The notes below the pieces were generated by a model, which was given only the letters and a program-made list of their open reading frames with translations, was not told the DNA's origin and did not search any database. Shown in pieces: positions 10,426 through 14,677 of a stretch of DNA of 32,653 nt. Position numbers and translations under genes: made by a program. This DNA comes from Sphingomonas hengshuiensis (lineage in GTDB: Bacteria > Pseudomonadota > Alphaproteobacteria > Sphingomonadales > Sphingomonadaceae), in assembly GCA_003240755.1 (NCBI GenBank), contig QFNF01000037.1:1-32653 (forward strand). Direction: 5' to 3'. Positions within the stretch are counted from its first letter, which is position 1. Every line of letters begins with the position of its first letter.

Positions 10426-11589
10426 TCAGACGATCGCATGCGGGACGAACCGCGCCAGATCGCGCGTGATCGGCCCGTCATCCTCGCGCACCGACAGCGC
10501 GACCGCCGCGTCGCCGACGATCCACGATCCGACCACCGCATGGTTGCCGTCGAACACCGGCAGCGGTGCAAGGGCCTGCACGACATGGCCTTCCTCGCCA
10601 TAGCCGCCCTCCGGCCCCCGCGCGGTCGCGGCGCCGTCGACCAGTTCGATATCCCATCCCTCGCGCGAGAAGATCGGCTTGCGCACATAGGCGTCGCCGA
10701 TCTCGGCCAGCGCCGCATCGTCGTCGGCAAAGGCGGCGGGCAGCAAATTGGGATGCCCGCGATGGCGTTGCCACAACAGCGGCAGGATGCCCTTGTTCGA
10801 CAGCAGCGCCTTCCATGCGGGTTCGAGGAACAGCGTCTTCGTCGCCGCCAGTTGCTTGGCATACGGCTCGCGCAGCATGTCCTCCCACGGATACAGCTTG
10901 AACAGCGCCGCGATCAGCACGTCGTCGCCATCGACGAACGCGCCGTCGCCGTCGACGCCGATCCGGTCGATCGCGACGAACGCCGGGTCCAGCCCCGCCT
11001 GGCGCGCGACATCCTCCAGATAGCGCACCGTCTGCCGGTCCTCGACATGGTCGTCGACCGATGCGAAATGCACCGTGCTGCCGCGCGTGAACAGCGCGCC
11101 GAAGCGTTCGACCAGTGCATCGTGCAGCCGGTTATACTGGTCGGCCCCCGCCGGCAGCGTGCCGTCGGCGATGCGATCCTCCAGCCATTGCCACTGGAAC
11201 AATGCGGTCTCGAAGATGCTGGTCGGCGTATCGGCATTGTATTCCAGCAGCTTGGCCGGACCGCTGCCGTCGAATGCGAAATCGAACCGTCCATAGAGCG
11301 ACGGGGCATGGGCCTGCCACGACGCCGCCACCACGTCGCGCATGTCCTGCGGAATGGCGAGCCGGTGCATCAGCGCGTCGCTGCCCGCCACTTCGCTCAC
11401 CAGATCACGGCACATCGCATGCAGTTCGGTGCTGGGGCCCTCGATCCCCTGCTCCACTTCCTCGATCGAGAAGGCGTAATACGCCCCCTCCTCCCAATAT
11501 TTCTGGCCGTCCTGATGATGGAAGGTAAAGCCCATCCGCCCGGCGGTCGCCCGCCAGTCGGGACGGGGGGCGACCGCGTGGCGCCGCAT
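10426..11589 (-). CDS. yjfC: Glutathionylspermidine-synthase-like ATP-grasp ligase (YjfC/YgiC family)
   Basis: This 387-residue protein matches YjfC/YgiC, stand-alone versions of the synthetase half of glutathionylspermidine synthase. That fold is an ATP-grasp ligase making amide bonds between a carboxylate and an amine. The characteristic start RMGFTFHHQDGQKYWEEGAYYAF, the middle LLEYNADTPTSIFETALFQW, and the late AYVRKPIFSREGWDIEL with the basic ATP-binding residues are all visible. YjfC and YgiC have no amidase half and their true substrates are not known; peptide or protein tagging has been proposed for the family. It is the last gene of yjfI-pspA-yjfC. Its ATG overlaps the pspA stop (TGATG), so translation is coupled. 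Confidence 0.9.
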   Translation of the reverse strand: MRRHAVAPRPDWRATAGRMGFTFHHQDGQKYWEEGAYYAFSIEEVEQGIEGPSTELHAMCRDLVSEVAGSDALMHRLAIPQDMRDVVAASWQAHAPSLYGRFDFAFDGSGPAKLLEYNADTPTSIFETALFQWQWLEDRIADGTLPAGADQYNRLHDALVERFGALFTRGSTVHFASVDDHVEDRQTVRYLEDVARQAGLDPAFVAIDRIGVDGDGAFVDGDDVLIAALFKLYPWEDMLREPYAKQLAATKTLFLEPAWKALLSNKGILPLLWQRHRGHPNLLPAAFADDDAALAEIGDAYVRKPIFSREGWDIELVDGAATARGPEGGYGEEGHVVQALAPLPVFDGNHAVVGSWIVGDAAVALSVREDDGPITRDLARFVPHAIV

Positions 11590-12329
11590 CAGTCGCGCCC
11601 GATCGTCCCGCCGTCGCGCGTCCCGTCGGACAGGCGCGGCGAATCCTTGGGCTGGGACAGGCGCGCAAGGATATCGTCGGCGCTCGACGATCCGGGCAGC
11701 AATCCGGCGGCCTTGAGCTTTTCGTCGAGGTCCGCGCCGGTGCGCATGTCCTCCAGCTCGGCCTGCGCCCTGAACTTCTCCTCGCGCACCGCCTGCCGTT
11801 CCTTCAGCCGGGCGAGGCTGTCCGCCGCCGACCCCAGCGACGACGTGGCGCCGCCATAGCTGCTGGCGACCGATGCCTGCGCCTTCTGCACGCTCTCGTT
11901 CGCGCGCACGACGTCGACCTCGCGGCGCAGTGCGTCGATCTTGCCGTCGCCGGTCTTGATGATGCCGCGGATCTTGTCCTCGGCCGCGCGCATGTCGGCG
12001 ATCTGCGGCGTCTTGAGCGACTGTTCCTGCTCGATCGTCGCCAGCCGCTGTGCGACCTCGCGCGCCAGGTCCATGTCGCCGCGCGCCATCGCGGCGCGTG
12101 CCGACGATTCGTACTTCTCGCGCTGCGCGGTGAGTCCCTCCAGCTCCTTTTCCATCATCCGCCGCTTGGCGGTCAGCGTCGCGAGGTCGTCGCGCGCCTT
12201 GGCCTGGAGCGATCCGGCATCGCGGATCTGCTGGTCGAGGATCGTCAGCGCCTTCGCATCGACGATCGACTGGCCGGTTTCATGCGCGGTGCCGCGGACC
12301 AGCGCGACCAGATTCTTCCACATCGACAT
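11589..12329 (-). CDS. yjfJ: PspA/IM30 family membrane-stress protein (YjfJ type)
   Basis: The 246-residue product is mostly a long alpha-helical coiled coil, as in PspA/Vipp1 proteins, the bacterial ESCRT-III relatives that bind and protect the inner membrane. The N-terminus MSMWKNLVALVRGTAHETGQ is the amphipathic membrane-binding helix. Coiled-coil heptads run from about residue 25 to 140. The tail ends in a short ADDILARLS helix and a polar C-terminus. It resembles the YjfJ branch more than canonical PspA: there is no pspF, pspB or pspC beside it. The first of two in-frame ATGs (12329 and 12323) is chosen because GGAG lies 8 bases upstream. It sits 13 bases after yjfI and overlaps yjfC. 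Confidence 0.9.
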   Translation of the reverse strand: MSMWKNLVALVRGTAHETGQSIVDAKALTILDQQIRDAGSLQAKARDDLATLTAKRRMMEKELEGLTAQREKYESSARAAMARGDMDLAREVAQRLATIEQEQSLKTPQIADMRAAEDKIRGIIKTGDGKIDALRREVDVVRANESVQKAQASVASSYGGATSSLGSAADSLARLKERQAVREEKFRAQAELEDMRTGADLDEKLKAAGLLPGSSSADDILARLSQPKDSPRLSDGTRDGGTIGRD

Positions 12330-12342
12330 CGACTAAACTCCG

Positions 12343-12774
12343 TTACGCGGCAAATTCGGTGCGCAGCTCGGACGCCGCCTCGATCGCGTTCTGCGCCAGC
12401 ACGCGCAGTTCGATCAGCACGGTACGCAGCGACGATTCGACCGACAGCTCACCCACCAGCTCATAATATTCGCGCCCGCCGACTTCGGCGATGGCGAAAT
12501 TCGACAGCGGCACCAGCTTCTGCGTCTTCAGCAGGAAACGGTTGAACGCATCCGGCTCCGCCTGTTCGTCGACCGGCCACAGCAGCGACGACACGACGAT
12601 CTGCTCGCCCGCGACCGAGACGAAGATGGCGAGGTCGCCGAAATGATGCATGGTCAGCTTCAGGACCGGTTCGGCCTGTTCGATCCGCTCGACGCCCAGT
12701 TCGTCGGCGTGTCCGGCGGCGTCCAGCACCTCGGCCAGCGCGGCGATCGTCCAGCTACGGGGTGCGTCGTCCAT
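12343..12774 (-). CDS. yjfI: DUF2170 protein (YjfI family)
   Basis: A 143-residue soluble acidic protein matching DUF2170, the YjfI family of unknown function. Typical parts are SWTIAALAEVLDAAG near the start, the central EQIVVSSLLWPVDEQAEPDAFNRFLLKTQKLVPLSNFAI, and a C-terminal helix ending SELRTEFAA. The ATG at 12774 follows GGAGGG closely. A longer frame to 12858 reaches into the divergent control region and is unlikely. It is first in the minus-strand yjfI-pspA-yjfC operon. From its position next to PspA, it may be a partner or regulator of PspA in place of PspB/PspC; that is inference. Confidence 0.88.
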   Translation of the reverse strand: MDDAPRSWTIAALAEVLDAAGHADELGVERIEQAEPVLKLTMHHFGDLAIFVSVAGEQIVVSSLLWPVDEQAEPDAFNRFLLKTQKLVPLSNFAIAEVGGREYYELVGELSVESSLRTVLIELRVLAQNAIEAASELRTEFAA

Positions 12775-12802
12775 CCATCCCTCCGAAACGCCACCCGGTG
12801 TA

Positions 12803-12841
12803 TTGGTCGCGCTTGACACCCCAAGCATAAGCGGCGACCAA
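12803..12841. promoter_or_regulatory. Long inverted repeat in the divergent yjf control region
   Basis: TTGGTCGCGCTT (12803-12814) is mirrored by AAGC-G-GCGACCAA (12829-12841), with one extra base in the right arm and a 14-base centre. It lies 29-67 bases upstream of the yjfI start in the only spacer shared by both halves of the cluster. A TTGACA hexamer (12813-12818) is embedded in it, though no good -10 is seen at normal spacing. It could be an operator controlling both directions. No sigma54-type GG/GC site was recognised. Confidence 0.4.
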
Positions 12842-12845
12842 AAAG

Positions 12846-12875
12846 CAAGGTGCGGCAAGGTGCGGCAAGGGGCGA
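12846..12875. repeat. Three tandem copies of a 10-base unit (GCAAGGTGCG)
   Basis: Two identical units and a third with one change (GCAAGGGGCG) follow the inverted repeat in the divergent yjf spacer. This may be a simple replication-slippage repeat or part of a binding array. The unit length is close to one helical turn. Confidence 0.6.
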
Positions 12876-12980
12876 AGCGCGGGATGCGGCACGCGCCCCC
12901 CCTTGGCGAACGCCCCGGTCCGGCGGTATCGACCGTATCGCGGTCCCCCGCCCCCTGTTCAACGCGCGAAGGATCGCGGC

Positions 12981-13619
12981 ATGATTTTCGGCAGCCTGTT
13001 CGGCGGCAATACCCGAGACGAAACCCCGGCGGTCGCCGTGGTGCGCGACATCACCATCGGACGGCAGGTGCGGCTCGACGCGCTGGCGTGGCGGCGGCTG
13101 ACCGGTGCCGCCTTCACCCTCGACCGCGACACGCTGGAAATCACCGCGCAGGGGCTGATCCGGCTGGATGACGGCAGCCATGTCCACCGCTTCTATACCG
13201 ACGACGAACTGATGCTGCAGGCCGTCAGCCAGTCGGCCGACGGGTCGGACGCCGACGACTTCACCCTGTTCCGCCCCTGGTCTTCGACCTATCCGGTCGA
13301 CTGGGCCGATACCGGCGCGTTCCGCAACCGGCTGTCGCAACCGGCATGGGACGAACCCGGACTCGCCCGCTTCGACCGCTTCTGGTATCCCGGCGACGAC
13401 CGGGTCCAGCCGCCGGTCGAACTGTGGGAAGCGGTCTATGAGGAACGCACCGGCCGTCCGGTCCGCCATATCAAGCAGGCCTGCATGCTGTATTCCCGCG
13501 AGGTCCCGCCCGAGGGGCAGGAACTGCTGCTGGCGCTGGCGATGCAGCCCGAGGGCGGCGACCTGACGCACGAGATCATGGTCGGGCTGCCGCTGCTGCC
13601 CGCCGAATTCAACGCCTGA
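12981..13619 (+). CDS. yjfK: DUF2491 protein (YjfK family)
   Basis: A 212-residue soluble protein of the DUF2491/YjfK family, unknown in function. Recognisable parts are the glycine-rich start MIFGSLFGGN, the segment VRLDALAWRRLTGAAF, a central HVHRFYTDDELMLQA, and the late LWEAVYEERTG. The ATG at 12981 has AAGGA eight bases upstream; the longer frame from 12903 has no support. It is the first gene of the plus-strand half of the split yjf cluster, followed after 12 bases by the DUF350 gene. Co-occurrence with PspA, DUF350 and the ATP-grasp ligase is what links it to envelope stress. Confidence 0.87.
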   Translation: MIFGSLFGGNTRDETPAVAVVRDITIGRQVRLDALAWRRLTGAAFTLDRDTLEITAQGLIRLDDGSHVHRFYTDDELMLQAVSQSADGSDADDFTLFRPWSSTYPVDWADTGAFRNRLSQPAWDEPGLARFDRFWYPGDDRVQPPVELWEAVYEERTGRPVRHIKQACMLYSREVPPEGQELLLALAMQPEGGDLTHEIMVGLPLLPAEFNA

Positions 13620-13631
13620 CAGGGGGACGGG

Positions 13632-14045
13632 ATGTTCGATGTTGCCTATTTCGTGGACGGGGCGGTGCATTTCATCGTCGCCTTCGGCCTTGCCTGCCTG
13701 TTCCTCACCGTCTTCAAATGGCTGTACCAGGTCTCGACCCCCTATGACGAACGCGCGCTGATCGCCGCCAACAACCCCGCCGCGGCGGTGGCGCTGGGCG
13801 GTGCGATCATCGGCTTCGCGCTGCCGCTCGCCTCGGCGCTGAGCGTGACGGTCAGCGTGGTCGAATTCACCGCCTGGGCCCTGCTCGCCGGCGTGATCCA
13901 GATCGTCGCCGCGTTCATCATCCGCCGCGTGATCGTGCGCGACATGGCCCAGCGGATCGAGGGCGGCAACATCGCCAGCGCGATCTACAGCGCGGCGACC
14001 TCGATCGGCGTCGGGCTGCTCAACGCCGCATCGATGACCTATTGA
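13632..14045 (+). CDS. yjfL: DUF350 inner-membrane protein (YjfL family)
   Basis: The 137-residue product has about four transmembrane helices: FIVAFGLACLFLTVF, AVALGGAIIGFALPLASAL, ALLAGVIQIVAAFIIRRVI and the C-terminal stretch SAIYSAATSIGVGLLNAASM. This matches DUF350/YjfL, a small family of paired-helix membrane proteins often found with PspA and GSP-synthase-like ligases. A strong ribosome binding site (AGGGGGAC) lies between it and yjfK. The stop codon is 11 bases before the DUF1190 start, so yjfKLM is one operon. A channel-like role has been suggested for such families, but nothing in the sequence proves it. Confidence 0.88.
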   Translation: MFDVAYFVDGAVHFIVAFGLACLFLTVFKWLYQVSTPYDERALIAANNPAAAVALGGAIIGFALPLASALSVTVSVVEFTAWALLAGVIQIVAAFIIRRVIVRDMAQRIEGGNIASAIYSAATSIGVGLLNAASMTY

Positions 14046-14056
14046 GGACCGCTGCG

Positions 14057-14677
14057 ATGACCACCCTGCCCCCCCGCCGCAAACGCTCGGTCGCTGCCGG
14101 CCTGACCGCCGTCGGCGCCGTCGCGATGCTGTCGGGCTGCGACGACAGCAACGAACAGGCACGCTTCGGCCCGCCGACCGAGGTCGCCGCGTTCCAGACC
14201 GTCCAGCAATGCGTCGACAGCGGCCAGTATGACCGCGCCACCTGCACCGCCGCCCAGCAGAAGGCGTTCAACGAGGACGGCAAGGTCGCGCCGCGTTTCG
14301 ACAGTCAGCAACTGTGCGAGGAACAGTTCGGTGCCGCCCAGTGCCAGCGTCGCAGCGAGGGCGGGCAGAGCTTCTTCACGCCCTTGCTCACCGGCTTCCT
14401 GATCGGCCAGATCCTCAACAACAACACGTCACGCTACACCTATGGCGGCCTCTACCGCGACCGGCGCAACGGCGGCGGCTGGTACACGCCGGGGGGCGCG
14501 TATCTCAGCCCCAGCAACGGCTATCGCTACAATGTCGGCAGCAAGGCGATCACCACGCCGGTCACGACCCAGCGCATCCAGACGCGCAGCTCGGTCGTCT
14601 CGCGCGGCGGCTTCGGCGGCCGGGTGAGCGCCCGCTCCAGCGGCGGCTGGGGCGGCGGGCGGTCGTTCGGGGGATAG
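14057..14677 (+). CDS. yjfM: DUF1190 lipoprotein (YjfM/YgiB family)
   Basis: This 206-residue protein has a basic leader and a lipobox (AMLSGC) with Cys28 as the acylated residue, followed by two aspartates. In E. coli, Asp at position +2 retains a lipoprotein in the inner membrane. The mature part matches DUF1190 (YgiB/YjfM): QQCVDSGQYDRATCTAAQQKAF, a second cysteine pair (QLCEEQFGAAQCQ), and a Gly/Ser/Arg-rich tail (GGFGGRVSARSSGGWGGGRSFGG). An in-frame TTG at 14042 overlaps the DUF350 stop, but the ATG at 14057 with GAGG upstream is better. In E. coli, YgiB is also paired with the ligase YgiC, as YjfM is with YjfC, so the glycine-rich tail could be a ligase partner or substrate; that is inference. 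Confidence 0.88.
   Translation: MTTLPPRRKRSVAAGLTAVGAVAMLSGCDDSNEQARFGPPTEVAAFQTVQQCVDSGQYDRATCTAAQQKAFNEDGKVAPRFDSQQLCEEQFGAAQCQRRSEGGQSFFTPLLTGFLIGQILNNNTSRYTYGGLYRDRRNGGGWYTPGGAYLSPSNGYRYNVGSKAITTPVTTQRIQTRSSVVSRGGFGGRVSARSSGGWGGGRSFGG

Follow-up and report, generated by a model that had tools for sequence, protein, structure and literature searches.

Which substrate does the stand-alone ATP-grasp ligase of a six-gene envelope cluster in Sphingomonas hengshuiensis act on? The cluster occupies positions 10426 to 14677 of a 32,653-nucleotide stretch of contig QFNF01000037.1 (hereafter the window, meaning the whole stretch of DNA that was analyzed). Its six genes lie side by side and form two divergent arms, with DUF2170, PspA and the ligase on the minus strand and DUF2491, DUF350 and a DUF1190 lipoprotein on the plus strand. 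Our analysis suggests that the enzyme probably gives a polyamine to the Gly-Gly tail of the neighboring lipoprotein. This tail is conserved, and what it accompanies is the ligase rather than DUF1190 or PspA. The features on which the argument turns are the following.

10426-11589, minus strand: YjfC/YgiC-type stand-alone ATP-grasp ligase (GSP_synth, Pfam 476 bits; 387 amino acids)
14057-14677, plus strand: DUF1190 lipoprotein (YjfM/YgiB; Pfam 125 bits), the proposed substrate
14138-14140, plus strand: codon for the lipobox cysteine (C33 when numbered from the TTG at 14042), invariant in the alignments
14603-14617, plus strand: tail motif R-G-G-F-G (R, G, G and G invariant and F above 90% in 34 sequences)
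14669-14674, plus strand: terminal Gly-Gly, the proposed acyl donor, with the end conserved in homologues

The window encodes a predicted peptide-polyamine ligase

The GSP_synth match spans residues 12 to 386 of the 387-residue ligase, which carries no further Pfam domain. Its nearest relatives are Sphingomonas proteins with 93 to 95% identity, and the closest solved chains are YgiC (7uk8; E value, 4.5e-115; top score) followed by YjfC (7uk6; E value, 2.2e-109). The ATP-grasp site, on which the initial annotation of this DNA had staked its reading, is intact. Five catalytic residues are kept: R101, D103, E116, N118 and K304 (numbers counted from the printed alignment) align with R316, D318, E330, N332 and K533 of GspS, an enzyme that uses spermidine. 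In Cp1B, the equivalent Arg, Asp, Glu and Asn residues are reported as necessary for activity (PMC12568646).

The initial annotation also described the reaction of the ligase as unknown. That description is out of date, since RefSeq names both YjfC and YgiC "peptide--spermidine ligase." Spermidine-ligase activity of E. coli YgiC and YjfC was reportedly described by Pederick in 2023. Judged by its sequence, the window ligase is likewise predicted to be a peptide-polyamine ligase. GspSA belongs to the same ATP-grasp family and shares its catalytic residues, but has a fused CHAP amidase; no such domain was found by Pfam in the window ligase, which is therefore not of the GspSA type. YgiC is described as lacking glutathionylspermidine synthase activity (PMC12506659). 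For YgiC and YjfC, the accessible parts of the literature examined report activity and state no natural peptide, and the conserved tail encoded next to these enzymes is a candidate, present in a laboratory strain.

The DUF1190 lipoprotein ends in a conserved glycine tail

Conservation of the lipoprotein was assessed in 80 loci fetched by ligase similarity to the window, among which Sphingomonas is over-represented, and in 249 Pseudomonadota genomes, which form a less biased sample. The alignment shows a lipobox (LSGC) and four further conserved cysteines. The R-G-G-x-G pattern in the C-terminal part is as invariant as these cysteines in 34 aligned DUF1190 sequences, and outside this internal motif, conservation is strongest at the final two positions. 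In the predicted structure (predicted local distance difference test [pLDDT], 74), the tail appears disordered and a globular part precedes it: residues ~31 to 160 are mostly well predicted, and residues 171 to 198 mostly score below 50. Compared with the PDB, the model gave no match with an E value of 0.001 or less.

A Gly-Gly end is present in 71 of the 73 DUF1190 proteins with a stop codon from the similarity-fetched loci and the window (exceptions, L035 and L062; the DUF1190 protein of L052 is cut and was left out). The same end is found in 20 of the 26 DUF1190 proteins from the 249-genome sample and in 112 of the best 120 of 200 homologues retrieved by a protein search. When 213 distinct ends were clustered at 50% identity, 32 of the 39 clusters ended in Gly-Gly, compared to a mean of 3.2 and a maximum of 11 over 5000 shuffles permuting the last 25 residues; these counts retain P0101, a probable chimeric protein ending in HA. 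Located 8 to 62 residues before the end, the internal motif is mostly RGGFG, and 38/39 clusters have it as [GSQR]G[FYV]G. Both E. coli members of the DUF1190 family, YgiB and YjfM, carry the internal motif and the Gly-Gly end, and YgiB is listed as a periplasmic lipoprotein with the lipobox LAGC (PMC3210124).

The tail accompanies the ligase

Loci were screened with a strict pattern, [RKS][GSQ]G[FYV] within the last 60 residues combined with a small-residue or GE-type end. Of 42 stand-alone ligase loci, 36 have an open reading frame (ORF) with such a tail; the set of 42 excludes G240 (below the cut-off) and a ligase fragment with a stop in G114. By contrast, no tail ORF was found at the eight CHAP-fused GspSA loci (CHAP confirmed in 8/8) or at the 14 loci with DUF2170-PspA that lack DUF1190, even though the control stretches searched were as long as the ligase stretches or longer. 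Where the strict pattern missed a stand-alone ligase, the partner lay 3 to 4 kb off in the other arm (G001 and G123; L083 and L099), carried a variant motif (YGGFG in G032, FGGFG in G147 and RGGLGG...GSVGS in G271) or was cut by the edge of the stretch, 2.3 kb away, so that 43 C-terminal residues of the tail ORF are included (G115). Within the similarity-fetched loci, 63 of 73 DUF1190 ORFs match the pattern.

The coupling extends beyond DUF1190. Of the 39 stand-alone ligases found across the 249 genomes, 14 have no DUF1190 call in the genome or locus, and the same is true of three more in a family-level sample of 149 genomes. These ligases adjoin other small proteins bearing the tail. As judged by eye, these proteins start with either a lipobox or a hydrophobic N-terminal segment, and several have a similar pair of cysteines. 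Lipoproteins beside the ligases of G015, G114 and G151, for instance, end in RGGFTS...SSGG, RGGFKS...SSGG and RGGFGG...GGGE, respectively. Eight of these small partners scored at best 16.7 bits against DUF1190, none reaching the cut-off of 22, and four more matched no family. Given the 16.7-bit score of one type and the similar cysteine pair in several, some of them may be reduced DUF1190 proteins that have kept the tail.

The association also holds in the reverse direction. DUF1190 matches occur in 26 of the 249 genomes, 25 of them real (three weak matches of 24 to 36 bits in G191 were not counted), and 24 of these 25 genomes also encode the ligase (Fisher p = 2e-20, with genomes that are not independent). 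The two families occur together in 13 of 14 cases both in the 149-genome family sample and in a genus sample of 114 genomes. The single exception in each sample is G091 (L211), which has DUF1190 and no GSP_synth match in its genome. Its tail reads GGVG for GGFG and ends in SEGS, and all 13 of its 13 congeners with both genes have the Gly-Gly end.

As a separate observation, a Curtobacterium plasmid (L191:3968-5662) carries a ligase annotated as two pieces, which looks broken, and the adjoining DUF1190 protein keeps a tail ending in Gly-Gly.

Proposed modification of the tail and its alternatives

The initial annotation had suggested the glycine-rich lipoprotein as a possible substrate of the ligase, and of all its proposals this is the one that gains most, from the conservation of the tail and its coupling to the ligase. 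We see an even chance that the core of the system is an enzyme-substrate pair in which the ligase amidates the C-terminal glycine of the lipoprotein with a polyamine. Such a reaction would supply the ligase family with the natural target it has lacked. The tail as acceptor is the economical reading, since it provides the only conserved C-terminal carboxylate encoded beside stand-alone ligases. The ligase would recognize the flexible tail, R-G-G-[FY]-G-(about 8 to 60 residues)-G-G-COOH, using RGGFG as a docking site. The carboxylate of the C-terminal glycine would be phosphorylated by ATP, and the resulting acyl phosphate would be joined to an amine, probably of spermidine or, in Sphingomonas, of homospermidine, which is known in this genus from chemotaxonomy. 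Modification of the lipoprotein would take place before or during export and precede lipidation, and its cationic end might bind anionic lipids, lipopolysaccharide or peptidoglycan. In such a scheme, DUF350 would be the usual membrane companion of the ligase-lipoprotein pair, and PspA, the CesT/Tir-like DUF2170 and DUF2491 would form an optional arm responding to inner-membrane stress.

Several points weigh against a modified tail. The first is topology: ATP and the enzyme are cytoplasmic and the mature lipoprotein tail is outside, in the periplasm or in vesicles, so a modification step before export must be assumed. Biotinylation of slowly exported fusions offers a precedent for such a step. 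The ends are also not uniformly Gly-Gly, as four DUF1190 proteins of the 249-genome sample end in GS and two in SS, and some non-DUF1190 partners end in GE or AS. The strict pattern was drawn up once the first tails had been inspected, and 30 of the remaining 10,946 six-frame ORFs in the similarity-fetched loci match it too. One locus with full flanks, L016 of Sphingomonas corticis, keeps DUF2170-PspA-ligase and has no tail protein within 8 kb; DUF2491-DUF350-DUF1190 is absent over the same distance, by possible displacement or loss. (Six further similarity-fetched loci without DUF1190, L014, L017, L025, L033, L043 and L044, lie at or near contig edges.) Finally, loss of the tail along with loss of the ligase is seen in one genome only, that of G091.

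Some of these points would fit a tail that is a docking or regulatory partner and not an acceptor. Here, the lipoprotein or small membrane protein would hold or inhibit the ligase, and the real substrate would be a small peptide. Coupling of tail and ligase requires binding only, the end residues vary (GG, GS, SS and GE), direct modification faces the topological problem, and relatives of GspS use the tripeptide glutathione. However, the last two residues are among the strongest positions, which fits an acceptor carboxylate, and a mature periplasmic tail cannot dock to a cytoplasmic enzyme. We regard this explanation as unlikely.

Less favorable still is the case for a sorting or stability element, which would protect against tail-specific proteolysis or bind the outer membrane or peptidoglycan, with the link to the ligase reflecting a shared pathway and not chemistry. 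Disordered tails rich in Gly, Ser and Arg are indeed frequent on surface proteins. In addition, vesicles from a tolA mutant are listed as containing YgiB (PMC7973035). We nevertheless consider this role quite unlikely: the same tail is borne by partners without a DUF1190 call, none of the 22 control loci has it, including 14 with PspA-type modules, and it is degenerate in the ligase-less G091.

A sister branch carries Gly-Lys lipoproteins

Amidation of a Gly-Gly tail has a possible parallel among the DUF2170-PspA loci without DUF1190. In six of these 14 loci (L216, L218, L220, L221, L222 and L224), a lipoprotein with a Ser/Arg-rich tail is encoded, and all six end in Gly-Lys. A Spermine_synth protein adjoins the Gly-Lys lipoprotein in five of the six, and L222 additionally contains AdoMet_dc and Peptidase_M50B genes. 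Among 108 homologues of the L222 lipoprotein, 98 end in GK and 103 in K. After clustering, 18 of 21 clusters of this branch end in GK, compared to a shuffle mean of 0.19 and a maximum of 3.

This branch is the second CesT/Tir-PspA group of Ravi et al. (2024), characterized by a spermidine-synthase fusion, and such systems were proposed to monitor polyamines or "aminopropylation of other substrates" (PMC11237479). It resembles the window in its DUF2170-PspA pair, DUF350 and a lipoprotein with a conserved end. It differs in that an aminopropyltransferase-like enzyme replaces the ligase and in that its lipoprotein ends in Gly-Lys, unlike the Gly-Gly of the window. The aminopropyltransferase-like enzyme would extend the encoded terminal lysine.

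Taken together, the two branches raise the tentative possibility, to which we assign somewhat less than even chances, of polyamination of ribosomally encoded proteins, in which two chemistries, both linked to PspA-type modules, cap the C termini of surface lipoproteins. Gly-Gly would be joined to spermidine by an ATP-grasp ligase, as in the window and in E. coli ygiBC and yjfMC, and Gly-Lys would be aminopropylated by a spermidine-synthase-like membrane enzyme. Both chemistries would leave a glycine with a polyamine-like cation on a disordered lipoprotein arm. If true, this would be a posttranslational modification linking polyamine metabolism to envelope lipoproteins. It would also explain the recurrence of polyamine enzymes beside PspA in two operon types.

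Gene content and organization of the locus

The remaining features of the locus are listed below.

11589-12329, minus strand: PspA/IM30 family protein in the YjfJ position (Pfam PspA_IM30, 156 bits)
12343-12774, minus strand: DUF2170, YjfI/BacA, CesT/Tir-like (Pfam 143 bits; ORF to 12858)
12775-12980, no strand: divergent intergenic region (~206 bp between the arms, from the likely starts)
12981-13619, plus strand: DUF2491, YjfK (Pfam 162 bits; ORF from 12903)
13632-14045, plus strand: DUF350 membrane protein, YjfL (Pfam 123 bits)

Eight window proteins were scanned with Pfam at curated cut-offs. All six yjfIJKLMC families named in the initial annotation are present with matches above these cut-offs, and the strands of the genes agree with its description of I, J and C running one way and K, L and M the other. 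The likely starts are ATG 12774 for DUF2170 (alternative, TTG 12858), ATG 12981 for DUF2491 and ATG 14057 for DUF1190 (alternative, TTG 14042). The PspA stop and the ligase start share one base in window coordinates, so the two genes can indeed be called coupled. The closest solved structures to the window PspA are Vipp1/PspA chains (E value, 6.4e-6), and the DUF2170 protein scores 115 bits against the NCBIfam BacA model, under its cut-off of 300. A predicted model of DUF2491, built from 8 sequences (pLDDT, 84), gave no PDB match with an E value of 0.001 or less; this leaves the enzymatic function suggested by Ravi et al. neither supported nor excluded.

The six families are separable

Among the 80 similarity-fetched loci, 51 have the order seen in the window, with DUF1190-DUF350-DUF2491 facing DUF2170-PspA-ligase. 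The term "rearranged" in the initial annotation is accordingly correct relative to E. coli, but the layout is neither local nor peculiar. Six loci, from Jiella, Aurantimonas and a Fulvimarina metagenome-assembled genome, have DUF2170-PspA facing DUF2491-DUF350-DUF1190-ligase. Fifteen show the lipoprotein and the ligase only, in 10 cases with DUF1190 facing the ligase and in 5 with the ligase followed by DUF1190; one of the 15, L052, is a short contig. Of the rest, one lacks DUF2170-PspA and seven have fewer genes, mostly at contig edges. One module, on a contig titled Bacillus sp. 2B10 (L009), has a ligase 94% identical to that of Sphingomonas and probably stems from a mislabeled or contaminated assembly.

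In the 249 genomes, GSP_synth occurs in 44, DUF2170 in 24, DUF2491 in 12 and DUF350 in 68. Ten genomes have both DUF2170 and DUF1190, and nine of these carry the two on one contig within ~5 kb. Fifteen of the 25 genomes with a real DUF1190 lack DUF2170, and 14 of the 24 with DUF2170 lack DUF1190. The initial annotation had named independent occurrence of its two halves as the outcome that would tell against it. Parts do occur apart, but the seam runs elsewhere, as the ligase stays with the lipoprotein and not with PspA: DUF2170-PspA is found without the ligase, and the ligase with the lipoprotein is found without DUF2170-PspA. That the six families form one PspA-based membrane-repair machine, with the ligase serving PspA, is therefore improbable on these counts and given the lipoprotein-ligase-only loci, even though all six families occur together in 51/80 loci and in another order in six, PspA and the ligase overlap translationally in the window and Ravi et al. 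group these genes (PMC11237479).

Transcriptional control and Psp context

Within the divergent region (12775-12980), no EcfG-like, sigma-54-like or sigma-70-like site was matched. PspB, PspC and PspF are absent among the eight window proteins scanned, and the locus does not have a pspFABC neighborhood. The initial annotation was right on this point for the proteins scanned, but a PspA-PspC pair exists elsewhere in a relative. In G001 (the genome of L001, with a 95% identical ligase), a second PspA lies ~0.3 kb from PspC (G001:C1:344356-345493), probably marking a classical psp locus. The classical Psp response may thus coexist with the six-gene module.

Relation to known systems

With its six families side by side, the window belongs to the yjfIJKLMC module and to the third CesT/Tir-PspA operon group of Ravi et al., which comprises this gene set and was linked to polyamine metabolism (PMC11237479). 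The E. coli yjfIJKLMC cluster has the same six families, its ligase is of the type found in the window, and YjfM ends in Gly-Gly. As the initial annotation correctly had it, the K-12 genes all run in one direction, whereas in the window they are split between two divergent arms and the ligase follows PspA. In E. coli ygiB-ygiC, a DUF1190 gene with a Gly-Gly tail directly precedes the YgiC ligase gene, the same families as the window pair. Unlike in the window, DUF2170, PspA, DUF2491 and DUF350 do not lie beside this pair, which follows tolC. The P. aeruginosa bac operon has DUF2170 (BacA, with a crystal structure) and PspA (BacB) in common with the window, but is reported to contain six genes with a proposed sigma-54 site (PMC10948618), and no such site is seen between the window arms. 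The CesT/Tir fold of DUF2170 is described in two studies (PMC11237479, PMC10948618).

The gene set is therefore known and the layout common; the pairing of tail and ligase is proposed here as new. The accessible sections of Ravi et al. make no mention of a C-terminal tail in this operon group (PMC11237479). Neither the tail-ligase pairing nor the Gly-Lys parallel was found in the literature searched, which does not include key subscription papers where an earlier mention is possible.

The window shares with the third group of Ravi et al. the CesT/Tir-PspA dyad, the GspS-like ATP-grasp ligase, DUF350, DUF1190 and DUF2491. That group also includes an ion channel (PMC11237479), and none is present among the scanned window genes. 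In a Rhizobium locus (L190:6632-7687), an ion-channel/TrkA-N gene heads the DUF2491-DUF350-DUF1190-ligase arm.

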